A stretch of 38,124 nt of DNA from Candidatus Uhrbacteria bacterium. Lineage in GTDB: Bacteria; Patescibacteriota; Patescibacteriia; JACPHY01. The stretch spans positions 1-38,124 of the forward strand of contig JACPHY010000001.1 of the NCBI GenBank assembly GCA_016188355.1. Direction: 5' to 3'. Below the pieces are notes generated by a model. That model worked only from the letters and a program-made list of their open reading frames with translations, ran no database searches and was not told the origin of the DNA. Shown here in pieces: positions 4,408 through 32,691 of this stretch. A program made the translations under genes and the position numbers. Each line of letters opens with the position of its first letter. The first letter of the stretch is position 1.

Positions 4408-7400
4408 ATGAGTAGCGCACTTGCTCTGGGAAAACGCGCGCTCACCTGGTCAGTGGTCGTAGCAACGATTGCGTGGTCGATGGGAGTCTCGCTCCTCGTG
4501 TCGCCGCTCGCGGCGCGCGCGGATGAGGCCCTCACGTCGGGTACCCTCATCAAGGGTTCCCTCCCCGCAGTCTATTACTACGGTGCTGACGGGAAGCGCT
4601 ACGTGTTCCCGAACGAGAAGACGTACCGAACATGGTACGCAGACTTCTCGTCTGTTCGTCGGATTTCGGATAGTCAGCTTGCAACGATTGCGATTGGTGG
4701 AAACGCAACGTACCGGCCGGGGGTCAAGATGGTGAAGATCACCACGGACCCGAAGGTCTACGCCGTTGGCGCGGGTGGCACGCTTCGCCACGTCGCAACG
4801 GAGGCAGTTGCCGCAGCGCTCTACGGAGCGAGCTGGGCGAGCATGGTGGAGGACGTTCCGGATGCATTCTTCGTGAACTACACGATTGGTGCATCGGTGA
4901 ATGCGGCATCGGATTTCGACAAGGCGGCAGTAGTTGCTGCGGCAGTGTCGATCAATGTCGATAAGAACCTCGGTGGTGGCACGACGCCTCCTCCGGCAGG
5001 CGCCCTCACCGCAATGGATGGTGGTTCGCCGTCGAACTCGAACGTTCCGTTCAGTGCAACGAACGTCATCTTTGCGAAGGTGAAGCTCTCGGGGAGTGGC
5101 ACGGTCACTGGTCTGAAGGCCACGCGGACGAACTTGTCCTCGGACACGGACCTCTCGAACGTGAAGCTCTTCGATGGCACGACGCAGCTCGGCACGTCGC
5201 AGACGCTCAACGCGGCACATCAGGCCGTCTTCACTGGACTCAATATCGCAGTGAGCGGTGAGAAGGTGCTCACGATTGCGGGTGACGTGGCGGCGTCCGG
5301 CACGGCAACGGCGGGTGACATCATTGTCCTCGGTGTTGAGTCCGCGTCGGATATTACGCTCCAGTCCGGCACCGTCGGTGGATCGTTCCCGATCCGCGGC
5401 GGTAGCATGACGCTCTCGTCGGTGTCCATTGGCTCCGCAACGCTCTACCGCGGCGCGGACATGCCGAGCTCGGACAACCAGCCCTCGCCGGATGCCGTGG
5501 ACTACCGGTTCACGCAGGTCCGGATTCAGGCGGGTTCGGTCGAGGATGTCACGATCAAGCAGATCACGGCGATTCAGTCGGGAACTGCAACGAACGATGA
5601 CATTAAGGACATCAAGCTCAAGAACGACACGAAGGGTGAGGTGGTTGCGACGGTGGCCCGCTTGAACAGCAATGGCCGCGTAGTCTTCGACAACCTCAAC
5701 ATCCCCGTGAAGAAGGGTGAGAGCATCAACCTCTCGGTTCTCGCGACGCTTTCTGGTGGTTCTTCGTCCGGCCGCACGGTCGGGTTCGAGCTCCACGATG
5801 GCGTAGCATACACGATCCAGATCGTGGGGAACACGTACGGATTCGGCATTACGCCGACTCGGAATGACTTCTGTGCGACGACCGGCGTGACTGGTGGCGC
5901 ATGTCAGAAGCAGACCGTAGCGTCGGGTACGCTCCGCGTTTCGCGCGCGGCATCGTCTCCGGCAACGGGGAAGGTTGCGCAGGGTGGCACGCAGATTCCG
6001 CTCATCGCCGTGGAATACAACATCACGGGTGAGTCGGTCCGGATCACCTCGCAGAACTGGGACTTCGCATTCGCGGATGACTTTGCTTGCTCCGAGCTCA
6101 CTTCGGTGACGCTCTACGATGCGAGCAATGCCGTGGTTGCCGGTCCGAAGGATTGTGCGTCGAACACCGTGACCTTTACGGATTCGATGACGGTTCCGGT
6201 GGGCACCAACGTCTACACGCTGAAGGCGAATATCGCCTCCACGGCGGGTGACGATGGCGATGGCACAGCGGACACGGTTGCCGCGACCCTCGATGTCTCG
6301 GAGTACACCGTAAAGGGTGTGAATTCCGGCAAGGCAACGACGGTTTCGACGACCACGGATGTCACGGGCAACACGCTCACCATCCAGGCGGCGGCGCTCA
6401 AAGTGACGAACGCCTCGACGCCGATCGCGGGATCGGTGGTTGCGGGGGTGCAGCACTTCGCATTCGCCAACCTGGACCTCGATGCATCGAGCGGTGGTGA
6501 GGATGTGAAGGTGAGCGATGTGAAGTTCACCGACACGCTTGGCGCGACGGCAGATGGTGCAGACATCATCAACCTCGAGCTTTGGGGCGACCCAGACACG
6601 AGCGATGCGGTCGACCAGGTCGTCCGTCTCGAAACCACGAACGCAACGGCAGGACTTTCGAGCGGAACGGTCACGTTCACGTTCAAGACCCCGATCCGCG
6701 TGGCGAAGAGCAGACCTTCGACCCTTACCCTGAAGGCAGATGTGAGCAAGTCGGCCACCATTGGTGGTACGGAGACTCACACCTTCGCGGTTGCTGCAGC
6801 GGCGGATGTGACTTCGACGGGTTGGTCCACGGGAACGTCGATCACGGAAACGGTTGCAGGGAGCGGTCAGGCGCAGACGGTGCGCGCCGCAGGTACGCTC
6901 AAGATTGAGGTAGCTGCCGATAGCGCAACGTCCGGCCCGGTCGTGGCAGGTTCCTCGGGCGTTTCCATGGCGAAGTACAAGCTCACCGCGAGCTACGAGG
7001 ATGTGGATCTGACGGACATCCCGCTCTTCCTCGCGAACGGCACGACGGGTGCGGGTACGCTCGCCAACGTGAAGAAGGTTCGTCTGTACAAGGATGGCCA
7101 ACCGGTCGGGAGTCAACTCGGATACACGTTCGATAACAACGCAAAGGTGACGGTCGTAGTGGACAATGGCGTCATCCGAGCGGTGAAGGACGTGCCGATG
7201 TACCTCGAGCTGCGCGCGGATTTCAACCTGAAGGAGCAGGTGTCCTCGGGTTCGGCCGCTCGCGTTGGTCTCGGTGATGCAGACAGCGATGCGAGCACGT
7301 GGGGTGGTGCGGGCAACTACAACATCACCGCGGTTGGCCGCGATGGTGGCACGCAGCTCACGGCCGCAACGCTCACGAACACGGGTGCGGCAGGTGGTAC

Positions 7401-8064
7401 GGTGAACGGCGGCAACGCATTCGGAGTGTTTGACGGTATTCTCACCGTTGGCCTCGATGCGACGGCGCCGAGCGGCGTCCAGACTGCCGGTACGGGCAAG
7501 GAAGTCTTCCGCTTCTGGCTGACGGCCACGGGTGACGATATCGCGGTCTACGATCTCGGCTTCCTCATGAGCGGATCGTCGACTGGTGGTGACGGCTCGG
7601 GCCAGATCACGGGAACGGGTGACGCGATCCTCTACAGCCCGGATCGGGCGACGCGGTATGCGGACTGGGCAACGGCCGATGTCACGCAGCCGATGGACCC
7701 CGGATCGACTGGTCTCCACATCCAGAGCGCGGACGGAACTGGCGCGTCGAGTGACGCAGGTTCTGACGGCACGGGTGGTTGGGACACGCAGCTCGTCGTC
7801 GGCGCAGGTACGACGAAGGTCGTCATCCTCACGGGTGACACCACGGGTGCGGGTGGTGCGTCCACGTCGAAGAGCTTCCAAGTTCGTCTCGATGATGAGG
7901 CAGCAACGGCTTCCGGTATCCAGTGGATGGACACGGAACTCGACAACAAGGCAGGTGCATCCTGCCCTGCGGCCTCCACCGATGCGGGCGCGGAGTGCGT
8001 CATCGACAGCGCGACGTACACGAAGACCCTCCCGGTCAACGGCAACGGCCTCACGTACAACTAA
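4408..8064 (+). CDS. S-layer-like secreted surface protein with N-terminal surface module
   Basis: A 1218-residue exported protein, probably the main structural layer of the cell surface. A signal peptide covers about residues 1-38, ending SPLAARADEA. Residues about 43-165 form a module with GKRYVFPNEKTYRTWYADF, KITTDPKVYAV and VPDAFF. A Gly/Pro linker follows, then about five Thr/Ser/Gly-rich beta domains of 110-150 residues sharing the pattern 'dVkvsdVkftdt...nlelw...tftFktpi...tLtLkADV'. Cysteines occur only in close pairs (for example SCPAASTDAGAEC near the C-terminus), fitting extracellular disulfides. Codon use is extreme (Leu mostly CTC, Lys mostly AAG, Glu mostly GAG), as expected for a very abundant protein. 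A perfect terminator follows. S-layer function is inferred from size, composition and export. Confidence 0.75.
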   Translation: MSSALALGKRALTWSVVVATIAWSMGVSLLVSPLAARADEALTSGTLIKGSLPAVYYYGADGKRYVFPNEKTYRTWYADFSSVRRISDSQLATIAIGGNATYRPGVKMVKITTDPKVYAVGAGGTLRHVATEAVAAALYGASWASMVEDVPDAFFVNYTIGASVNAASDFDKAAVVAAAVSINVDKNLGGGTTPPPAGALTAMDGGSPSNSNVPFSATNVIFAKVKLSGSGTVTGLKATRTNLSSDTDLSNVKLFDGTTQLGTSQTLNAAHQAVFTGLNIAVSGEKVLTIAGDVAASGTATAGDIIVLGVESASDITLQSGTVGGSFPIRGGSMTLSSVSIGSATLYRGADMPSSDNQPSPDAVDYRFTQVRIQAGSVEDVTIKQITAIQSGTATNDDIKDIKLKNDTKGEVVATVARLNSNGRVVFDNLNIPVKKGESINLSVLATLSGGSSSGRTVGFELHDGVAYTIQIVGNTYGFGITPTRNDFCATTGVTGGACQKQTVASGTLRVSRAASSPATGKVAQGGTQIPLIAVEYNITGESVRITSQNWDFAFADDFACSELTSVTLYDASNAVVAGPKDCASNTVTFTDSMTVPVGTNVYTLKANIASTAGDDGDGTADTVAATLDVSEYTVKGVNSGKATTVSTTTDVTGNTLTIQAAALKVTNASTPIAGSVVAGVQHFAFANLDLDASSGGEDVKVSDVKFTDTLGATADGADIINLELWGDPDTSDAVDQVVRLETTNATAGLSSGTVTFTFKTPIRVAKSRPSTLTLKADVSKSATIGGTETHTFAVAAAADVTSTGWSTGTSITETVAGSGQAQTVRAAGTLKIEVAADSATSGPVVAGSSGVSMAKYKLTASYEDVDLTDIPLFLANGTTGAGTLANVKKVRLYKDGQPVGSQLGYTFDNNAKVTVVVDNGVIRAVKDVPMYLELRADFNLKEQVSSGSAARVGLGDADSDASTWGGAGNYNITAVGRDGGTQLTAATLTNTGAAGGTVNGGNAFGVFDGILTVGLDATAPSGVQTAGTGKEVFRFWLTATGDDIAVYDLGFLMSGSSTGGDGSGQITGTGDAILYSPDRATRYADWATADVTQPMDPGSTGLHIQSADGTGASSDAGSDGTGGWDTQLVVGAGTTKVVILTGDTTGAGGASTSKSFQVRLDDEAATASGIQWMDTELDNKAGASCPAASTDAGAECVIDSATYTKTLPVNGNGLTYN

Positions 8065-8168
8065 TAACGTGATGTTGGCTCGGTGGATTGCATGATGGAG
8101 GTGTGTGGATGGGCACGACTCGTTCCAGTGCTTGCCCCGCCAACCCATGTGAATCACCGGGTGCCGTC

Positions 8169-8200
8169 GAGGACCCCCAGGCAATAGCCTGGGGGTCCTC
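8169..8200 (+). terminator. Strong hairpin terminator after the S-layer-like gene
   Basis: GAGGACCCCCAGGC and GCCTGGGGGTCCTC form perfect 14-bp arms around AATA. The following bases are AT-rich (ATATTGATATAG) rather than a pure T-run, and TTTTTT occurs at 8223-8228. It lies about 105 bases after the S-layer stop and should isolate that transcript from the TPR/protease unit. Confidence 0.8.
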
Positions 8201-8229
8201 ATATTGATATAGCGGATCGCTCTTTTTTC

Positions 8230-8256
8230 TTGGAAATCCGGTCGGCCTGGTATATG
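8230..8256 (+). promoter_or_regulatory. Candidate extended -10 promoter for the TPR/subtilase pair
   Basis: TGGTATATG (8248-8256) is an extended -10 with TGn before TATATG. TTGGAA at 8230-8235 is a possible -35 with a short 15-bp spacer. It lies between the S-layer terminator and the TPR gene. Confidence 0.4.
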
Positions 8257-8311
8257 CTGAGTCGTACTGAGCCGGTTGCGGGTGCTGGATATTTGGCTTT
8301 GCCGCGCATGT

Positions 8312-8989
8312 ATGTTTACGAAACGACAACTTCAGATCATGTCGGGCGCCGGACTCCTCGTGGTCCTTGTGGTGGTCGGGGTGGTGATTCGGGAGCGTCT
8401 CGCGCAGCGGGAGGCGCGACGATTGCCGCCGGTGGCGACGGACCTCACGCCGGATCATCGGCGGGAGCTGGAGGAGCAGGCCGCCAAAGCGGCAGCAGCC
8501 ATCGCGCAGAATCCGAGTGACTTCAATGCGCATGTGGAGCTCGCGCTCGCGAAGGCGGATCTCGGCGACCGAGATGCCGCCGCAGAAACGTATCGCACCA
8601 TGAATCAACGGTTCCCGGGCAACTACCTCTCCTTTCAGAATCTCGGTCAGCTGTACGAGGATGCGGGAAAGTATGATCTCGCCGCGGAGCAATATCTCCT
8701 GGCCATCAACAATGCGCCGCGCATTGCGCACCTCTATCGAAAAATCGTGAATCTCTATACGTACCAGCTGAAGAATCGCGCATCCGATCTGCCGCGCATT
8801 CTCCAGAAGGGACTCGGCGTGATGCCGGGGAGTATTGATCTCATGGCGATGCTCGCGGTGTACTATCGCGATCACGGGCAGCCGGAAGAGGCAATCAAAT
8901 GGTTTGAGCATCTCCTCGTGTTCGATCCGAAAAACACGGCGGCGCTCGATGAGGTGAAGGCGCTGCAGGCAAAGCTGCGGAGTAAATAA
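8312..8989 (+). CDS. TPR-repeat protein with N-terminal membrane anchor
   Basis: A protein of 225 residues from the ATG at 8312 (MFTKRQLQIMSGAG). The ORF track starts 12 codons earlier at a TTG, which would put polar residues and cysteines before the anchor. One hydrophobic segment (about residues 10-27, LLVVLVVVGVVI) is followed by a charged helix and three to four tetratricopeptide repeats, including NFAHVEL-type and NYLSFQNLGQLYEDAGKYDL helices and a final RDHGQPEEAIKWFEHLL. TPRs bind other proteins, so it probably acts as a membrane-anchored assembly partner. It is 9 bases upstream of the subtilase gene, so a shared job in surface-protein secretion or processing is plausible. Confidence 0.8.
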   Translation: MFTKRQLQIMSGAGLLVVLVVVGVVIRERLAQREARRLPPVATDLTPDHRRELEEQAAKAAAAIAQNPSDFNAHVELALAKADLGDRDAAAETYRTMNQRFPGNYLSFQNLGQLYEDAGKYDLAAEQYLLAINNAPRIAHLYRKIVNLYTYQLKNRASDLPRILQKGLGVMPGSIDLMAMLAVYYRDHGQPEEAIKWFEHLLVFDPKNTAALDEVKALQAKLRSK

Positions 8990-8998
8990 GGGAACGAT

Positions 8999-11041
8999 GT
9001 GCGCATGCGCTCCTTGCTCCGGATGGGATCCATCGTTTCTGTGATCGGCATGATCGCCGTCCCTTTCGTGGCGTCGGCGTTCGCTCCGAACGATCCGTTT
9101 GCGACGCAGCAGTGGTACCTCGATCGTATTGCTGCGCCGGCGGCATGGGAGGTGACCACCGGCAACGAGCGCTCGGTGATTGCGGTGCTCGATGTGGGCG
9201 TCGATCTGGATCATCCTGATCTTGCCGCGGCGATATGGAAGAACCCTGGTGAGGTGCCGGGCAACGCGATCGATGACGATCGTAATGGGTTGGTGGATGA
9301 TGTGCATGGGTGGGATTTCATCGGCAATGATCCGGATCCCACACCAGCGCTTGATGTGGCGGGATCGAATCCCCGCGACTTGCATCACGGCACCATTGTG
9401 GCGGGTATCATCGCCGCGCGGGGGAATAATGGCACGGGCATTGCGGGGATTGATTGGAAGGCCGTCATCATGCCCCTGCGCGTGCTGCACAGCGATGGGA
9501 CGGGCGATGTGGACTTGGTGCTCGCCGCGTTTCGGTACGCGGTGGCACATGGCGCGACGGTCATCAATTTGAGCTTCGTGGGTGACCAGCGGAGCACGGA
9601 ATTTGACGCAGTTATTGCGGATGCGGAACGGCGTGGCGTGATCGTCATTGCTGCGGGCGGCAATGAGGATCGCCAGGGGCGGGGAGATCTCGATCGATTT
9701 CCGGTATACCCCATTTGCGCGGAAACGGATGGACGTACGGTCCTGGGGGTTGCGGCGACGAATTTGGATGATGCGAAAGCGTCGTTTTCGAGTTACGGGA
9801 GTTGCGTGGATATCGCTGCGCCGGGGGAACGGATCGTTGGGACGCTGTTCCACGATCCCGGACATGCGGCCATTCCGGTGGGCGGGACGGTATTGCCGTC
9901 GACCTTCGCGCAGCCGTACGGTGGATTTTTTTCCGGCACCTCATTTGCGGCGCCGATTGTTTCTGGCGCGGTATCGCTCCTGCGTAGCGTGCTGCCGAAG
10001 GCGACACCGAAGCACGTGCAGGCGATATTCGCGCGCACGGCAGATCCGGTACGCAGCACGCCCCAGGTGACCGCGGATCGCATGGGCGCGGGGCGTCTGA
10101 ACCTCGCACGCGCGGTCGCTGCGGCAGCTGCAGAGGCCCGGATGACGCCGAACGCAACGCAGTCGCGGATCACGACGACCGTGCCGCTCGCATCGGTTGG
10201 TGAACGTGTCCCGGTGCGCGTGGAAGTCCGAGCGACAGATGGGCAACCCATTGCGGATCGGCTCGTGGCGCTGCGGTCATCGCGGTCGTCCGATGTGATT
10301 GCGCCGGTGACGGTCACCACAGATGTATTGGGTATAGCGCTGTTCACGGTACAGGCACGCGAAGAGGGCATCGCAGAGCTCGTTGTCATGGTGGAGGAGG
10401 AGGTGGTCGCGCGCGGTCGTGTGGTATTTGCACGCGCGACGACCGCGCCCATCGGAACGGGGTCGCTGCTGCGTGGTGCGTCGAGTACGACGGTGTACCT
10501 CATCGCCAGCAACGGAAAGCGGTACGCATTCCCCGATGCGCAGACGTTCCGTTCCTGGTATGCCGACGCTCATGAGGTGCAGCGGGTGGGAGATGTGGTG
10601 CTCGCTGCGTTCCCGCTCGGTGGACTCGTACCAATCCGACCGGGTACGTTCTTAGCGAAGATCACGACCGATCCCAAGGTCTACGCCGTCGAACCGCAGG
10701 GGGTACTTCGGTGGATTTCGGATGAGACCACCGCACGTGCGCTCTACGGAGCTGAATGGAGTCGCCGCGTCGTCGATGTGCCAGATGCGTTTTTTCCGAC
10801 CTACCGCATTGGCGATCCGCTCGCGGTCGGCGAGATTCCCGAGCAGACGGTGCTCGAGGATGCGACGACGGGCGAGCGGTATCTCATCACGAGCGGACAG
10901 CGGCGCCATCTCGCCTCGATGCTCGCGTTTTTGAAGAATGGCCTCCAACTCCGAGACGTGGTGCGTGCGCCGGTGGTGACGTTGCCGGACGGAGCGCCCA
11001 TCGTCGATCGAGAGCCGGCCATTGCCCTGCCGATACCGTGA
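8999..11041 (+). CDS. Secreted subtilisin-like serine protease (S8) with S-layer-type C-terminal module
   Basis: A 680-residue exported protease. A signal peptide covers about residues 1-28. The S8 catalytic domain spans about 40-380, with Asp65 in AVLDVGVDLDHPDL (Val replaces the usual Thr of DTG), His130 in HHGTIVAGI, the oxyanion Asn222 in AAGGNED, and Ser315 in SGTSFAAPIVSGA. Residues about 395-480 form an Ig-like beta domain. Residues about 485-605 repeat the module of the S-layer-like protein (GKRYAFPDAQTFRSWYAD, KITTDPKVYAV, VPDAFF). A shorter related copy (ERYLITSGQRRHLAS) follows. The enzyme is probably held at the surface by this module. The start is GTG 8999 or ATG 9005. All catalytic residues are present, so it should be active. 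Confidence 0.9.
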   Translation: MRMRSLLRMGSIVSVIGMIAVPFVASAFAPNDPFATQQWYLDRIAAPAAWEVTTGNERSVIAVLDVGVDLDHPDLAAAIWKNPGEVPGNAIDDDRNGLVDDVHGWDFIGNDPDPTPALDVAGSNPRDLHHGTIVAGIIAARGNNGTGIAGIDWKAVIMPLRVLHSDGTGDVDLVLAAFRYAVAHGATVINLSFVGDQRSTEFDAVIADAERRGVIVIAAGGNEDRQGRGDLDRFPVYPICAETDGRTVLGVAATNLDDAKASFSSYGSCVDIAAPGERIVGTLFHDPGHAAIPVGGTVLPSTFAQPYGGFFSGTSFAAPIVSGAVSLLRSVLPKATPKHVQAIFARTADPVRSTPQVTADRMGAGRLNLARAVAAAAAEARMTPNATQSRITTTVPLASVGERVPVRVEVRATDGQPIADRLVALRSSRSSDVIAPVTVTTDVLGIALFTVQAREEGIAELVVMVEEEVVARGRVVFARATTAPIGTGSLLRGASSTTVYLIASNGKRYAFPDAQTFRSWYADAHEVQRVGDVVLAAFPLGGLVPIRPGTFLAKITTDPKVYAVEPQGVLRWISDETTARALYGAEWSRRVVDVPDAFFPTYRIGDPLAVGEIPEQTVLEDATTGERYLITSGQRRHLASMLAFLKNGLQLRDVVRAPVVTLPDGAPIVDREPAIALPIP

Positions 11042-15245: not shown

Positions 15246-16364
15246 ATGCGTATCGTCCACGCGGTTTCCACATTTCCGCCGTATCGTGGCGGCATGGGCA
15301 ATGTGGCGCAGGAGCTCGCTTTGCGGGCGATTGCGCAGGGACACGAAGTGGAAGTGGTGACTCCCGGAAGAGCGAACGGATCGCACGCCGTCCTTCCGCT
15401 TTCCCCGGCCATCCCGTGGCTTTGGTACGGCAATGCAGCGTGGTGTCCCGGCATGGGGCGGACGATCACGCGACGAGCGCCCGATGTGGTGCATTTCCAT
15501 TGGCCGTTTATTGGCGGTGCGGCATCGGTATTGGCGTGGCGTCGTCGTGCCCAGGGTCGGCTGATCGTCCAGTTCCACATGGATCTGGTGGCGCAAGGGA
15601 TGCGGAAGTGGTTATTTGGGGGGTACCAGTGGTGGTCATTGCGGCGGCTGTTGTCCGCTGCGGATCGGGTGGTAGTCTCCTCCTGGGACTACGCGTGTTC
15701 GGGTGCGCTTGCGGCGCATCTCCCCAAACTCGGATCTCGTTGCGTGGCGATTCCGTTGGGAGTGGATGGGCATCGATTTGCTCCCGATCCGACCCAGTCG
15801 CGTCCACGGGTGTGCACAATGCTATTTGTGGGCGGGTTGGATCGCGCGCATGCGTTCAAGGGGGTGCCGGTACTCCTCGATGCGTGCGCGATGGTGCCGG
15901 ATGTCCAATTGCGTATCGTGGGTGATGGCGATTTGCGGGCGGCATTGCAGGAGCACGCGCGCATGCGTGGCATCGCGGATCGCGTGGAGTTTCTCGGCGC
16001 AGTGACCGCAGACCAGCTGCCGATGGTGTATCGATCGGTCGATGCGGTCGTGCTCCCCTCGACCGCACGTTCGGAGGCATTTGGGTTGGTGCTCCTGGAG
16101 GGGATGGCGTCCGGCGTGCCAGCGATTGCATCGGATCTTCCCGGCGTGCGCACGGTGATTGAAGAGGGGGTGACCGGATTTCTCGTGCCCCCCGGCGATG
16201 TGCGCGCATTGGCGGAGCGCATCCGGGCATGCGTGATCCATCGTAGCCGTTTGCGCGAGATGGGCGCGCGGGCGCGCGAACGGGTCATGGTATCGTACAC
16301 ATGGGCTGCGCTCGCGCAGCAATGGACAACACTGTACGACGACGTATGTCATACACGCGGGTAA
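15246..16364 (+). CDS. Glycosyltransferase family 4
   Basis: A 372-residue GT-B enzyme. The N-terminus RIVHAVSTFPPYRGGMGNVA holds the GG acceptor loop. The donor domain begins near MLFVGGLDRAHAFKGVPVLL, and the E-x7-E motif is EAFGLVLLEGMASGVPAIAS. Length and layout match the mannosyl/glucosyl GT4 group. It starts 4 bases after the previous gene, so the two are cotranscribed and likely act in sequence on the same glycan. Confidence 0.9.
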   Translation: MRIVHAVSTFPPYRGGMGNVAQELALRAIAQGHEVEVVTPGRANGSHAVLPLSPAIPWLWYGNAAWCPGMGRTITRRAPDVVHFHWPFIGGAASVLAWRRRAQGRLIVQFHMDLVAQGMRKWLFGGYQWWSLRRLLSAADRVVVSSWDYACSGALAAHLPKLGSRCVAIPLGVDGHRFAPDPTQSRPRVCTMLFVGGLDRAHAFKGVPVLLDACAMVPDVQLRIVGDGDLRAALQEHARMRGIADRVEFLGAVTADQLPMVYRSVDAVVLPSTARSEAFGLVLLEGMASGVPAIASDLPGVRTVIEEGVTGFLVPPGDVRALAERIRACVIHRSRLREMGARARERVMVSYTWAALAQQWTTLYDDVCHTRG

Positions 16365-17614
16365 TGGTTGCCGGTGTGGCCGTGAGCAGTGCCGTACTCC
16401 TGGTGCCGGTGCGGGTGTTCGCGCGTGCGGGAGGGGGCGGATCTTCTTCTGGTGGCGGCGGGGGATTTGGTGGCGGGGGATCGGGGTCGAGCGGCGGGGG
16501 TGATCTTTTCCTGCTAGCGGTGTACCTGATCATTTTTATTGGCGTTGTCGTGGGTGCGTATGTTGCCCAACGACGGCACCGACAGCGCGTTGCGCTGGCG
16601 AAGGCGGCGTTGCAACAGGCAGCACAGACCGATGCCGCATGGAATGAGGATGCGCTTCGGGCGCGGATTGCGGAGGTGTTTACTCGTTTTCAAGAGGCAT
16701 GGGGAACGCTTGATGTGACGGCGTTGGCGCCGTTGCTCACCGAGCCATTCCGGAAGCGGATGGTTTTGGAATTGGCAGTGCTCAAAGCGGAGGGGCGACG
16801 CAATATCCTGGAGCAGCCGCGGATCCTTGCCATGGAATTCCTGCAGGTCACGGATGCGTCCGGTTCTCAGGAGGATCGGGTACTGGTTCGTTTGCATGCG
16901 CAGGCAAAGGACACATTGCGCGATGTGGTGCGGAATGTGGATCTCTTCACGGATTCGGATGCGTTTGTTGAATACTGGACTCTTGCCCGTGAGGATGGTT
17001 CCTGGCAGCTCGATCGCATACAGCAGGCGACGGAGGCGCCGAGTCTTCGGGAGCGCACCATACAAGCATTTTCTGATCGGCATGGTTTTTATTACGATCC
17101 GGATTTCGGTTGGCTCATGATGCCGAATCGTGGCGTGTTGTTCCGGAGATCCAATTTTCGGACGTCCGACATCAATAATCACGTGATTGGGTACTACCGC
17201 GAGCGGGTGGTGGAACTCTTCACATACATCCCACGGCCGGATCGGCGACGCCGCACGGAGCGCGGATGGGTCGTGGCGCAGGCAATCCTCCCGAAGCGGT
17301 ACGTGGACATCCTGGTGGAACACCGCCGTTGGTGGCATGCGATCCTGCCGCGCCGCGGATTCCAACGTATTGCGCTGGGGAATGTGGATCTCGATCGAAA
17401 ATTCTCGGTCTGGGCATCTCCCCTGGATCAGGCGAACACGTTTGAATTATTGACGCCCACGTTCCTGGAGCGCATCCATGCGCTGCCGTTTCCGGTGACC
17501 ATTGAGGTGGTGGATCACTTCCTGTATCTCGCCACACACCATCGGTCCTCTCCGAAACAGTACGAGGAAATGTGGGAGGTGCTCTCCTGGGCATTTGATG
17601 AATTGGAGCGATAA
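16346..17614 (+). CDS. Membrane protein with Gly-rich loop and Tim44/DUF3137-like domain
   Basis: A protein of about 423 residues. The ORF track starts at 16301, but ATG 16346 (MSYTRVMVAGVAVSSAV) gives a clean signal segment; ATG 16364 overlaps the GT4 stop as TAATG and is also possible. After the signal comes a pure Gly/Ser stretch, then one membrane helix (LFLLAVYLIIFIGVVVGAYV). A cytoplasmic Tim44-like fold follows (about residues 105-210, ARIAEVFTRFQEAWGTLDV), then a DUF3137-like C-terminus (FQRIALGNVDLDRKFSVWAS). Tim44-like domains bind membranes or partner proteins. Its job in a glycan operon is unclear. Domain calls are by eye and moderately sure. Confidence 0.7.
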   Translation: MSYTRVMVAGVAVSSAVLLVPVRVFARAGGGGSSSGGGGGFGGGGSGSSGGGDLFLLAVYLIIFIGVVVGAYVAQRRHRQRVALAKAALQQAAQTDAAWNEDALRARIAEVFTRFQEAWGTLDVTALAPLLTEPFRKRMVLELAVLKAEGRRNILEQPRILAMEFLQVTDASGSQEDRVLVRLHAQAKDTLRDVVRNVDLFTDSDAFVEYWTLAREDGSWQLDRIQQATEAPSLRERTIQAFSDRHGFYYDPDFGWLMMPNRGVLFRRSNFRTSDINNHVIGYYRERVVELFTYIPRPDRRRRTERGWVVAQAILPKRYVDILVEHRRWWHAILPRRGFQRIALGNVDLDRKFSVWASPLDQANTFELLTPTFLERIHALPFPVTIEVVDHFLYLATHHRSSPKQYEEMWEVLSWAFDELER

Positions 17615-27249: not shown

Positions 27250-30200
27250 ATGTCGAGCATACGCACCGAACGCGTGGCGACCGACGAACACGCGAATGCG
27301 GTTCTGGAGGTGGGTCACGAAACCGAAGAGGAGCGCAACGCGCGCGAGCGCGTGGCGCGTGCACGGGAACGGTCCTGCTATCAACTGCAGGAGCGGTTTG
27401 GGTTTTGGTCGGAGCATGACCCGCGACAGCAGCTGCTCCAACGGGTTCGGCAGCGCGTGGCGCCGCATCTGCATGTTCCGGATGGTACGGTGGTGGGCAT
27501 CCGCTCCCCCATGCCGAATGCATGGGTCTTCCGTTCATTTTCGGAGATCTATCTATTGGAAGGATTGCTCCGGAAGTTTGCTGCGTGGTGCGCGGATCGC
27601 GGGCAAGCACTGACCGAGGACAAGATTGCCATGATTGTGGGGCATGAATTGAGTCACCTCGAGCAGGGGACCGAAGAGCGGACCGGAGATGCAAAGGAAG
27701 AATCGGTGTACGCAGAGACGGAGATCCTCCAGCGTCGCCGCAATGGCGAATACGATGCGGATCGGCGCGGTCTCATCGCGATGGCGAACGCAGGGTATAA
27801 CCCGCGTGAGGGGATCGCGGCGTTGGAGTTTTTGCAGTCGTTTCCGAAGGGCTTTGCATTGGTCCGTACCCATCCGCGTGATGTGGCCCGTCTTCGGGAA
27901 CTCCAAGAGCTCATCGAGAGCCCGGATACCTTTGTGCCGAATGTGGGGGTGGCGCCGACCGCACTAGCTCCGGAACTCCTCCAGGCGATACAACGGGAAC
28001 CGGAGGATCAGCCCGGGACGGCACTCTACCAGGAAGCGGGTCGCCGCGATCTGCGTGCGCTCCTGCAGCGTGCGGGTACGATCCACGATGTGATGGAGAT
28101 CGTGCAGATGGCGCAGCAGTATGACGGTCTGGCACTGGCCGAATCGCTCGCGCGGACATTGGAGGGGAAACGTCACCTGGCGCAGCAGGTGTTCGCGTAT
28201 AACGTTGCTCAGGTCGTAGAGGTGATTCGTTCGAGTATCACGAAATCGAATTCCTGGTGGTCGTCCGGTCGATTGCCGATGACCTCGGTTTTTGCGGAGT
28301 ACGCACAGCGAGCGCTGCGGGTGCCGGTCGTTCCCATGACCGCAAAGCGCATGCCCCGCGAACAGCTGCAAGAAAAAGAAAACAACCTCCTCGAACATCT
28401 GATCGAAAAGATCGACGACGCGATCGCCGATCTCGCGGGGACGGAAGATCGGCGGCATGTGGGCCTCGAATCGACGCACACCTTGCAGCGGCATCGAAAA
28501 TTTTTGGCAGATCTCGATGCGGGACGCGCGAAGGAAATGTCATGGCAGGTCGCCGGGTTGAGTCGCGCAGAAATCCTCGATCACCTCCAACGGCTGGAGG
28601 GTGCGATTCAGAAACTCAACGAGCTCAAGGTGCAATTGCCCACGGCGCTGCGGGACATGACCGATCAACATCTCGAGCAGTTTGCGGTGCAGACGCACCT
28701 GCCCACGGAGCCGCGGGAACGGTGGAGCGCACAGCAGGGGAACCGCTCGTTGGTGGAGGCGCGTGATGCTGCTGCGCTCGTTGCCTGGTGCGCGGCCAAT
28801 GGAACCCCATTTTTTGTGGACTCCACACAGGAGTCGCTCCAGAAGCGCGCGGAGCACGCGGGGAAGGGTATCGTGCATTTCGAATCCACACCGGAAACGA
28901 CATGGGACCTCACCCAGGGGGCGCAGCGGCGACGTTACTTGGATCGGGTGGCGGTGCATGCTGCCGCTCCGATTGCCGAGACCATGCTGACGCAAGCGAT
29001 GCCGCGGTTGCGGCGGGGCAGTGCCGCATCCACCGAGCTTCCGCATCTTGGGCAAATTGCCGATGGTATCCCCAGGCGTCTCCAGGAGCGGTATGCGGGC
29101 GTCCTGACGCCGGATCATGCATTGGCTTTCGCGACCATCATGGTGGGGACCATGTGGAATGCGAAAGAAGATCCGGATGTGCTCTTGCGCGCATTGGCGG
29201 AGGAATTCGGACGCGAGGAGTGTGAACGGTTTTTGCGTACATTTCCGCTTCCCCGCGTGGAAACGCAGTCTTCTGGCGATCCGATATTGCTCCAGGAGAT
29301 TGGAGTGGAGACGGATCGGTACGAATATACACCTCGGCACGAGGAGCGAACGCTGCGGCAGTTGGTGTGGACGCGCGCAGTGCGGGAAGGGTTCGCCGTA
29401 CCCAGTCCGCGGGAGCGGCTGGAGCACATGCGCCAGATGCTCGTCCGCTCCGAGGGATATACGGCCGAACGCGTGATGGATGAAATCGTGGATGCTCTGC
29501 ACGATCTCCAAGCGACCACCGCAGACGAGCTGCGTGCATTGCTGGCGCCGATGATGGGATTGCTGTCGGACGCGAGCGAATCGGTGGCTGCATTGCTCAT
29601 GAGATTGAGCCGACAGCATCCCGAGGTGCCGCCAGGCGAGATGTTCCGACTGGCGCACGGATCGAACGAGTACGAAATTTGGCATCTGTTTCAGGAGATG
29701 CAGAAGGAGTATGCAGATGCGTCGGCGAATGTACGATTGGCGATTTGGGATGCGTTATTGGACATCCTGCCGCGATGGCCGGGAAGCCTCGTCGAATGTG
29801 GACACCATGAAGATCATGCCACGCACCAGGAACGGTGCTGGGCAGAGCTCATGCGCGTTGGCGCGGAGTATGTGCGACTGTATCGCCAATGCCATCCTGA
29901 AGCGTTGCGCATTGCACCACTCCAACGGTTGACGGCTGCCGGGTGCGTGGGATTTACGGAGGATCCGCATACGAAAGAACAGCTCTTGCTGAATGACCGC
30001 GCGCTCACCGAGGAGTTCGCCACCTATACGAACCACGCATTCGTCATGCTGGCGCGGCACGCGGTAGCGGTGGAAGATCGACGCATACCGCTGCCGCGTG
30101 ATTTTCAGCATCGGCATGATCTCTGGTTGCGGTGTGTCGCGGCGAAGGCGATACACGCAAAAAATCCGGCCGCGACGCCCACCCTCGCTCAGCCCGGTAC

Positions 30201-32691
30201 TTGGTTTGATGCGCGCGGTGTGGCGCTCGAGCACAATGCGGCGGCTGTCATGGAATTGGTGCCGAAAGAAATTCGGGAACAGGCGTTGATGGGACTGCTG
30301 GATCAGTATCATTGCTCATCCGATCGGGCGATTGCGAGCGGAGTGGCAGCTGCGCTGGAACCGCTCACGGAAGCATCACGGAACCAATGGCCCTCCGCGA
30401 TCGCAGCCCTGCAGAATCCAGCAGATCTCGATGCACTGCTGAAGGACTACGATCCCAAGGCTCGGCCATTCACCGACCTGCTCCGTCGGGAGACCGAATA
30501 TAATCGGCGGCGCAGCATTTTGGAGCGGCATTTCAGGGAAACACATGCATCGGTGCTCGGGAATGCGCAGCTATCGCCCGAGGAACGTCTCGCTCGAATT
30601 GCGGCCCTCGTGCCGGAGCGCGTGTCCTTCCGCGATACGCACATTGAGCGGCTCGAGCAGTGTGTGCTCCAGGAGCATCGCTTGCCTGCCGACTGGGAGG
30701 CGGCAGCGGTACCGCTGGCGGATGCGCTCGCCGTGTACGAATTTTACGTGAAAGCGATTCCGCTCGTGAGTAATGCGGCGCTGCAGCAGGTGTATTCGCG
30801 TCGGGCAGATGCGCTGGCCCGCGTGCATCTTTCCGGATCGATGCAGTTCGTACGAGCGCTGGACCGTATCACGACGCTCTATCCCAGCTCCTCCTTTGCC
30901 CGAGATGAGGCGCTCACACGTCTCGGGAACTCGGAACTCGTGCAAACTCCGGAACAAGCGAACGACATTCTCGATCAGCTGCATGCGGCGCAGCGGCGCA
31001 CGACGACGGATCAGCAAACGCTACGGGAGCAATCCACTGCGGAATCGATTCAGGAAGTGGTGCGCATGCTCAGCCGAAGTGAGCGCATGGATTTTCTCCT
31101 CTGGTGTTCGGGGGCTGGCGATCAGCCGCCGCGGAGTCTGCGGGCGCTTGGTGGCTATTTGCACTGCTCGTTTTCGAGCACGCCCGATCTCATGTTTGCG
31201 GCAGAACCTACAGAGCGAAACGAGCTCCTCTTCTCCCTACTCATCGGTGAAAACGGCATCATGGAACCGAAGTCCGAAGATGATCAGATGCTCTTCGAGG
31301 TGTTCCTCGAGGTTTCGTTTGAGCGTCTGTTCCCATCGGACGTCACGGGGGTCAATGAACAGGGGCGGGCGATTTTGCGGAGCGTCTTCAAGACCATTTT
31401 CACCACCTATGAGCCGTTCCGTCGCGCACAGCTCTACGTGGCGGTCATGGAATCGTTGCGGACGCAGCGTCGGGAGTCGACACCCGCGGAACGTATCCGG
31501 TCGCTGCTCGAGGTGCTCGGTCCGACATTTATCAAACTGGGGCAGCTGCTGAGCGAAGAGGAGACTGCCGCAGGTGAGCCACTCCTCCCAGAGGATCTCC
31601 GGACCGAACTCCGAAAACTCAAACAATCTGCGCAGGGATTCCGTCGTACGGCGGGAATTCAGGCGCTCGCTGCCGCGGGGGAATTCACGCGTTCCGCAAC
31701 GAACCCGCAGCCCATTGCACACGTGGATGCGCTGTTGGGCGCGGCCTCGATCAAGCAGGTGTACCGGGCGACACAGACGGATGGTCGGCGGGTGGTGGAA
31801 AAGGTGCGGCGTCCCTCTATCGCAAAGCACCTTGAGGAAGATTTCCGGGTGGTGGATCACATCGTCGCCAATCTCCGGGCCATCACGGAAATTCCCGAAG
31901 GTCTCGAGACGCGCGCGAAGCGGTGGATACGGGATGAGGTGGATTTCGCGCGGGAAGCTGCCAATCACGCGATGATTGCGGAGGTGTGCACGGCGTATGC
32001 GGACGCGCGTGTGGTACGAGATGAACTCATTGCGACCGTCCGCGTGCCCGAGCTCCTGTCGCACAGCGCGGAGCACATGCGCGAAGAAGAAGCGCGCGGC
32101 TTGACGCTTGATGATCTGGCGCAAGTACGGGAAGGGGTGCGCGTCCTGGACGACGTGCTGCGCGATCGGGGCGTCGCGGCGCAGCATCGACCATATTATG
32201 CCGCGGTGGTAGCCGGATTCGATCGCGTGCGACTGCAGGCGTTCGATGCATTGGCGTATCAGCTCTTCGCTGCGGGACGTTTCCATGCGGATCTCCATGC
32301 GGGTAACATGATCATTACTCCACAGCGTGAGCTCATCATGATTGATCTCGGCAGTGCGGGTGAGGTGGCGCGTGATCAGGTACCCGCATTGCGGATGTTC
32401 TTCTTCGGGTTCACGACGCGTCATGCGGAAACGATGGCGATGGGGATCCGTGCGTTTGTTCCGGAGATCACCGAGGCGCAACTGGAACGCATCGCGGAGG
32501 TGATGGAGGATAGCCGACTCGATCGTCGGGAGCAGTTCCGAAGAACGCTGATCATTATGAGCGCGGGGGGAGCGGTCATTCACGAAGGATTTGAGAAGTT
32601 TCTCAAGGCGCTTGCCACGGGCGCGTACCTCACGCGCGGATTGCGTGAGGAGCAGCTTGCCGTTTCGCTCATGACATACGCGTCGTCGTGA
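27250..32691 (+). CDS. Giant M48-type metallopeptidase/UbiB-type atypical kinase fusion
   Basis: One uninterrupted 1813-residue frame. Near the N-terminus is an M48 (gluzincin) peptidase: HELSH at 132-136 gives two zinc ligands and the catalytic Glu, NGEYDADRRGL at 166-176 gives the third (Glu167), and RTHPRDVARLREL is the family's downstream His-Pro motif. The C-terminus, about 1400-1720, is a UbiB/ABC1/AarF-type kinase: FIKLGQLLSEE (KxGQ, Lys1429), GAASIKQVYRA (Ala-rich loop near 1497), VVEKVRRP (Lys1518), FHADLHAGNMII (catalytic loop, Asp1681, Asn1685) and IDLGSAGE (Asp1699). The 1100-residue middle is charged, mostly helical, with a likely coiled coil near 370-470, and is not recognised. 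No signal peptide or membrane helix is visible, so it should be cytosolic, unlike HtpX or UbiB. ATG 27250 has a weak AAAGG upstream. Confidence 0.85.
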   Translation: MSSIRTERVATDEHANAVLEVGHETEEERNARERVARARERSCYQLQERFGFWSEHDPRQQLLQRVRQRVAPHLHVPDGTVVGIRSPMPNAWVFRSFSEIYLLEGLLRKFAAWCADRGQALTEDKIAMIVGHELSHLEQGTEERTGDAKEESVYAETEILQRRRNGEYDADRRGLIAMANAGYNPREGIAALEFLQSFPKGFALVRTHPRDVARLRELQELIESPDTFVPNVGVAPTALAPELLQAIQREPEDQPGTALYQEAGRRDLRALLQRAGTIHDVMEIVQMAQQYDGLALAESLARTLEGKRHLAQQVFAYNVAQVVEVIRSSITKSNSWWSSGRLPMTSVFAEYAQRALRVPVVPMTAKRMPREQLQEKENNLLEHLIEKIDDAIADLAGTEDRRHVGLESTHTLQRHRKFLADLDAGRAKEMSWQVAGLSRAEILDHLQRLEGAIQKLNELKVQLPTALRDMTDQHLEQFAVQTHLPTEPRERWSAQQGNRSLVEARDAAALVAWCAANGTPFFVDSTQESLQKRAEHAGKGIVHFESTPETTWDLTQGAQRRRYLDRVAVHAAAPIAETMLTQAMPRLRRGSAASTELPHLGQIADGIPRRLQERYAGVLTPDHALAFATIMVGTMWNAKEDPDVLLRALAEEFGREECERFLRTFPLPRVETQSSGDPILLQEIGVETDRYEYTPRHEERTLRQLVWTRAVREGFAVPSPRERLEHMRQMLVRSEGYTAERVMDEIVDALHDLQATTADELRALLAPMMGLLSDASESVAALLMRLSRQHPEVPPGEMFRLAHGSNEYEIWHLFQEMQKEYADASANVRLAIWDALLDILPRWPGSLVECGHHEDHATHQERCWAELMRVGAEYVRLYRQCHPEALRIAPLQRLTAAGCVGFTEDPHTKEQLLLNDRALTEEFATYTNHAFVMLARHAVAVEDRRIPLPRDFQHRHDLWLRCVAAKAIHAKNPAATPTLAQPGTWFDARGVALEHNAAAVMELVPKEIREQALMGLLDQYHCSSDRAIASGVAAALEPLTEASRNQWPSAIAALQNPADLDALLKDYDPKARPFTDLLRRETEYNRRRSILERHFRETHASVLGNAQLSPEERLARIAALVPERVSFRDTHIERLEQCVLQEHRLPADWEAAAVPLADALAVYEFYVKAIPLVSNAALQQVYSRRADALARVHLSGSMQFVRALDRITTLYPSSSFARDEALTRLGNSELVQTPEQANDILDQLHAAQRRTTTDQQTLREQSTAESIQEVVRMLSRSERMDFLLWCSGAGDQPPRSLRALGGYLHCSFSSTPDLMFAAEPTERNELLFSLLIGENGIMEPKSEDDQMLFEVFLEVSFERLFPSDVTGVNEQGRAILRSVFKTIFTTYEPFRRAQLYVAVMESLRTQRRESTPAERIRSLLEVLGPTFIKLGQLLSEEETAAGEPLLPEDLRTELRKLKQSAQGFRRTAGIQALAAAGEFTRSATNPQPIAHVDALLGAASIKQVYRATQTDGRRVVEKVRRPSIAKHLEEDFRVVDHIVANLRAITEIPEGLETRAKRWIRDEVDFAREAANHAMIAEVCTAYADARVVRDELIATVRVPELLSHSAEHMREEEARGLTLDDLAQVREGVRVLDDVLRDRGVAAQHRPYYAAVVAGFDRVRLQAFDALAYQLFAAGRFHADLHAGNMIITPQRELIMIDLGSAGEVARDQVPALRMFFFGFTTRHAETMAMGIRAFVPEITEAQLERIAEVMEDSRLDRREQFRRTLIIMSAGGAVIHEGFEKFLKALATGAYLTRGLREEQLAVSLMTYASS

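Follow-up and report, generated by a model that had tools for sequence, protein, structure and literature searches.

S-layer proteins follow a common pattern, in which a conserved anchor is combined with a variable assembly part and the domains are arranged like beads on a string (PMC12175726). The SLH domain (PF00395), found in S-layer proteins and surface enzymes of Gram-positive bacteria, belongs to this pattern and consists of ~55-residue repeats beside a divergent assembly part (PMC12175726). Another repeat of interest here comes from type VII secretion. The repeats of EccB1 are built of four strands and two helices and resemble PlyCB, the wall-binding subunit of a phage lysin; the authors proposed peptidoglycan binding for EccB1 without experimental data (PMC4769845). 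PlyCB itself binds the cell wall with the involvement of the cationic residue R66 (PMC4848087).

Little is understood about the cell envelope of Patescibacteria. Imaging of ultra-small groundwater cells has shown periodic surface layers and no outer membrane (PMC7906910), and a study of a Parcubacterium described envelope formation and structure as remaining unclear (PMC5220378). A text search of a recent S-layer review (PMC12175726) returned no mention of Patescibacteria.

Here, we describe a protein module shared by an S-layer-like protein (P1) and a secreted subtilase (P2) of Candidatus Uhrbacteria. Like SLH, it consists of ~55-residue repeats and lies beside a divergent assembly part, but it differs from SLH in sequence and fold and has two repeats instead of three. 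We read it, with a probability of about 0.6, as an autonomous, non-covalent anchor to the wall or envelope that would work in an SLH-like manner. The broader reading, for which we see even odds, is that a class-wide anchor module without a name so far, an SLH equivalent made of an EccB/PlyCB-type repeat, tethers the S-layer together with a set of surface enzymes to the cell wall in Uhrbacteria, Falkowbacteria, Magasanikbacteria and their relatives and would show, for most of these genomes, which gene encodes the S-layer protein. The module thus offers a way into the question of how the coat and the surface enzymes of these cells may be kept in place. For most genomes of one class, it singles out a candidate S-layer gene, along with its anchor and the proteins that may be displayed together with it.

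Gene arrangement at the P1/P2 locus

The window is the whole stretch of DNA analyzed, 38,124 nt in length. Its host is a member of the Candidate Phyla Radiation with a tiny genome (1.06 Mb, 92.5% complete) and is probably uncultivated. An earlier note on this DNA, made from the sequence alone, had assigned the reading frames of P1 and P2, and both were confirmed in place (Table 1). The locus is surrounded by glycosyltransferase and sugar-nucleotide genes, consistent with a surface-polysaccharide neighborhood. A sigma-70-like promoter was not detected there.

Table 1 Features of the P1/P2 locus, in window positions.
Feature	Position	Strand	Evidence or remark
P1, S-layer-like protein, 1218 aa	4408..8064	+	signal segment, module, flexible linker, Ig-like domain chain
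Module copy 1 (P1 aa 44-165)	4537..4902	+	BLASTP, profile comparison, model
Half-repeats of module copy 1	4540-4719 and 4720-4896	+	
P1 body, all-beta Ig-like array	4975..8061	+	model; no Pfam match
TPR protein with N-terminal membrane segment, between the P1 and P2 genes	8276..8989	+	
P2, secreted subtilase, 680 aa	8999..11041	+	Asp65/His130/Ser315 and Asn222 present
Peptidase_S8 domain of P2 (PF00082)	9173..10090	+	E=1.5e-43
Big_1-like Ig domain of P2 (PF02369)	10202..10417	+	E=3.6e-5, under the Pfam cut-off
Module copy 2 (P2 aa 486-610)	10454..10828	+	BLASTP
Half-repeats of module copy 2	10460-10642 and 10643-10819	+	
Possible third, degenerate repeat (P2 aa 616-668)	10844..11002	+	by eye

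The TPR protein encoded between P1 and P2 shows the top codon adaptation to ribosomal genes among 118 ORFs, a list in which P1 is absent. Three further reading frames deserve mention. A 1250-aa open frame runs antisense to P1 (4450-8202, minus strand) and probably arises from GC-rich codon bias. An ORF at 16301-17614 (plus strand), amid the glycosyltransferase genes, encodes a Tim44-like domain. The third, an ORF of 1813 aa (27250-32691, plus strand), is unusual in combining an M48 peptidase match close to the start with an ABC1 kinase-like match towards the end.

P1 and P2 share a module of two related repeats

The similarity between P1 and P2 that the earlier note had pointed out is real. 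BLASTP yielded a single strong local alignment of P1 residues 36-161 with P2 residues 478-605, with 65 identities in 128 positions (51%), 127 bits and an E-value of 4e-34. All five motifs named previously, GKRYxFP, RxWYAD, KITTDPKVYAV, ALYGxxW and VPDAFF, are present in both copies. The module comprises ~120 residues and is located N-terminally in P1 and near the C-terminus in P2. Similarity by chance or through low complexity was ruled out by this E-value together with the presence of four copies in the genome.

Profile comparison divided the module into two related half-repeats, which share 28% identity over 53 columns in register (P=2e-4). Downstream of the P2 module follow ~70 further residues which, judged by eye, resemble a third, degenerate repeat; the half-repeat HMMs gave no detection there.

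We found no convincing family match for the module in Pfam and NCBIfam. Assignment to a known domain of these libraries was rejected, as the matches were scattered and sub-threshold, for instance to AstE_AspA_hybrid and NdhS. The P1 module is basic (pI 9.15), but the P1-like modules are not all so, with a median pI of 5.7, and basic charge was therefore dismissed as a general mechanism of the module. Literature searches for the motif or for a described anchor in these bacteria returned nothing, which, given the mostly open-access coverage, is weak evidence of novelty.

The module recurs in exported proteins of one class

As the earlier note had suggested, an HMM of the module was used to count its copies in the host. 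Using a profile built from the first four copies, we identified exactly four in the 1.06-Mb genome, all with E<1e-58, and the next match followed at E=0.12. All four belong to exported proteins: P1, P2, an M23 peptidase that carries the module at its C-terminus, and a protein of 639 aa in which it is N-terminal. The genes of the latter two lie within about 12 kb of each other (L009, G000:C17, 3280-16150) and form a second cluster of module genes.

Beyond the host, the module was detected in 41 of 57 genomes (own genome and relatives), with up to 16 copies per genome of the same class. In a survey of the phylum (sample of 287 genomes), 20 of the 22 same-class genomes among those listed carried it. 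Outside the class, 27 genomes of this sample had much weaker matches, many of them to one half only and sometimes in tandem. Named carriers are Uhrbacteria, Falkowbacteria, Magasanikbacteria and Kerfeldbacteria. What the earlier note had seen in two genes is a class-wide surface module, more general than could be known from the sequence alone. One copy is encoded on a contig filed under Halanaerobium (L054), probably mis-binned Patescibacteria DNA.

Among 121 complete module proteins, the module directly follows the signal sequence in 97 and is located at the C-terminus in 15; in three subtilases, P2 and two others, it lies near the C-terminus and is followed by a short tail, raising the number at or near this end to 18. 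A hydrophobic, export-like segment was found in 116 of the 121 proteins, compared to 16 of 103 internal control windows. The partners of the module include S8, M23, cupredoxin, Big_7, Big_1 and fn3-type domains. Cupredoxin-like domains were matched in 14 of 73 module proteins scanned, and weakly in the 273-aa protein of locus L058. A recurrent pair of genes, encoding proteins of ~480 and ~270 residues that both start with the module, was observed at this locus and at five others (L064, L079, L081, L083 and L121).

These varied positions and partners indicate that the module is mobile and autonomous. A domain that is fused to either end of many unrelated exported proteins could also be an export, sorting or processing signal that is read by a secretion machine and does not serve as a permanent anchor. 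Sorting signals, however, usually occupy one fixed end, and the module in most cases comes after an ordinary signal segment at the N-terminus. It is moreover well folded according to the model and better conserved than the rest of the S-layer-like protein, and the one sorting-type match, to Por_Secre_tail, was at chance level (2 of 125 copies, E=0.064). We therefore regard a sorting function as very unlikely and retain the reading as an anchor.

Predicted fold and possible phage relatives

The isolated module was modeled by AlphaFold2 from 125 sequences with a pLDDT of about 96 over construct residues 10-133. DSSP assigned two repeats of about four strands and two helices each to the model. 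A repeat of about 55 residues with this composition corresponds to the pattern of EccB and PlyCB (PMC4769845). The earlier note had considered that the module might turn out to be an internal part of each fold that does not recur in other exported proteins; instead, it is predicted to fold on its own, and it recurs in such proteins.

In a fold search against the PDB, the top ten matches were all EccB (best E=0.005, probability 0.94). Because whole-chain TM-scores were low, the likeness to EccB holds for single repeats. With the periplasmic repeats R1-R4 of EccB, the best solved-structure match, the module shares the four strands and two helices per repeat. Unlike the module, EccB belongs to a secretion machine and combines a core domain with four repeats; E-values were weak and sequence similarity was not detectable. 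A sequence search against solved structures up to E=10 likewise returned neither EccB nor PlyCB, only chance matches, mostly antibodies. The likeness to PlyCB, a subunit of the streptococcal C1 phage lysin, is drawn solely via the resemblance of EccB repeat 1 to the PlyCB N-terminal domain (PMC4769845); unlike the module, PlyCB forms an octamer, and it was absent from the direct matches shown.

Among predicted viral structures, the best match was a 115-aa protein of a Rhodococcus phage (Weasels2), with E=1.7e-6 and a TM-score, normalized by target length, of 0.73. Phage CHAP, M23, lysozyme and amidase proteins were among the weak matches, with E-values of 0.05 to 2. In sequence, a single library family gave a match of any weight: phrog_9616, a phage family of 118 aa and unknown function, matched 37 of 125 module copies (best E=1.1e-5), most copies thus not matching. 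We found no match to the P2 module by tblastn in 50,697 phage records, and no relatives of the module on viral contigs.

Taken together, these likenesses point towards a possible role in wall binding. The module could also be a protein-protein docking or assembly domain of the dockerin-cohesin or lattice-contact type that would bind a second module or a different surface protein, so that enzymes would be held by the S-layer and not by the wall. In the solved structure, EccB repeats pack pairwise (PMC4769845); the module is moreover found on several different proteins within a cell, and gene neighbors share it. A candidate receptor domain was not found, however, and the module sits at the extreme N-terminus of the S-layer-like protein, the usual anchor site. 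Its presence in an M23 peptidase and the possible inclusion of phage wall hydrolases among the relatives of the repeat fold also speak against docking between proteins, which we consider unlikely. Attachment to the wall or envelope is the reading followed below.

P1 is a candidate S-layer protein

P1 is acidic (pI 4.6), with a high content of A, T, G, V and S and little Cys, His and Met. In the full-length model, the N-terminal module is followed by a linker of low confidence and a long all-beta chain of Ig-like domains, and a fold search with the whole model gave generic multi-Ig matches only. No Pfam match was obtained for P1, SLH (PF00395) included. Across 32 P1-like relatives, identity to P1 is 51-82% in the module and 19-59% in the body. 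P1 therefore shows the traits of an S-layer protein in being large, acidic, low in Cys and beads-on-a-string-like, with a conserved anchor and a divergent body. Among 88 ORFs, it has the lowest Nc, that is, the strongest codon bias, with EF-Tu second, which suggests that P1 may be very highly expressed. Taken together, P1 is a good candidate for an S-layer protein and probably the main S-layer subunit of its host.

SLH domains were found in none of 18 genomes, and sortase in four of them; in the host genome, sortase was not found. The docking or wall-binding role which the earlier note had proposed for the module is supported by several independent, albeit indirect, lines: the predicted autonomous fold, the repeated occurrence of the module on exported proteins, an M23 peptidase among them, the EccB/PlyCB-like repeats, the SLH and sortase searches and its S-layer-like carrier. 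According to the mechanism we propose, exported proteins would carry the two-repeat module at either end, and the module would attach non-covalently to a wall component, presumably peptidoglycan or a linked polysaccharide. In P1, it would dock the N-terminus and the Ig-like chain would build the S-layer.

The surface recognized may also be a foreign one. Ultra-small groundwater cells of this radiation have been imaged attached to hosts (PMC7906910), and an adhesin for the surface of a host or prey, with the protease and the M23 peptidase aimed at its wall, would give these enzymes host structures to attack; in its possible phage relatives, the fold is part of wall hydrolases. We consider this improbable, as the module occupies the N-terminal anchor position of what appears to be the most highly expressed structural surface protein and as the cupredoxin partners suggest attachment to the cell's own surface. 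Anchoring to its own wall or envelope remains our preferred reading.

P2 and the linkage of subtilase genes to P1-like genes

By sequence, P2 is a complete S8 protease, with the Asp-His-Ser triad and the oxyanion Asn in place. The match to Peptidase_S8 reached 149.6 bits against a cut-off of 21.8 and covered profile positions 4-287 of 288. A weak Big_1-like Ig domain is placed between the protease domain and the module. P2 resembles S8 subtilases in domain and triad; its C-terminal module belongs to no library family. Classification as a type VII secretion mycosin (TIGR03921) was rejected, with 160.2 bits against a curated cut-off of 278.75.

P2 is the only subtilase detected in the host genome. 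In eight of 17 subtilase-bearing genomes, a subtilase gene lies within about 10 kb downstream of a P1-like gene on the same strand. Given that genomes of ~1 Mb contain one to three subtilases, this linkage is far above chance; the binomial value of 5e-10, at an assumed chance of 2% per genome, serves as a guide only since the genomes are related. The linkage supports a joint surface role of the P1-like protein and the subtilase.

The earlier note had placed the protease in the same layer as P1. The shared module and the gene order in eight of 17 genomes favor this view. Against it, the neighboring subtilase lacks the module in four of the eight linked genomes and ends in FG-GAP-type repeats (FG-GAP assigned by eye), so that the linkage of the genes is more general than the shared module. 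Using the same anchor as P1, P2 would act at the cell surface next to the S-layer, and we lean slightly towards a display of P2 at the same surface as P1. That P2 processes the S-layer, as had also been proposed, is plausible, but it is a speculative and rather doubtful step further, which the gene linkage favors and no other observation does; cleavage of other surface proteins by P2 would be equally speculative.

In three of the four genomes with a module-less neighboring subtilase, a separate module protein is encoded between the two genes. The FG-GAP or integrin-alpha-like ends that replace the module in subtilases beside P1-like genes were observed at loci L138, L143, L144 and L152.
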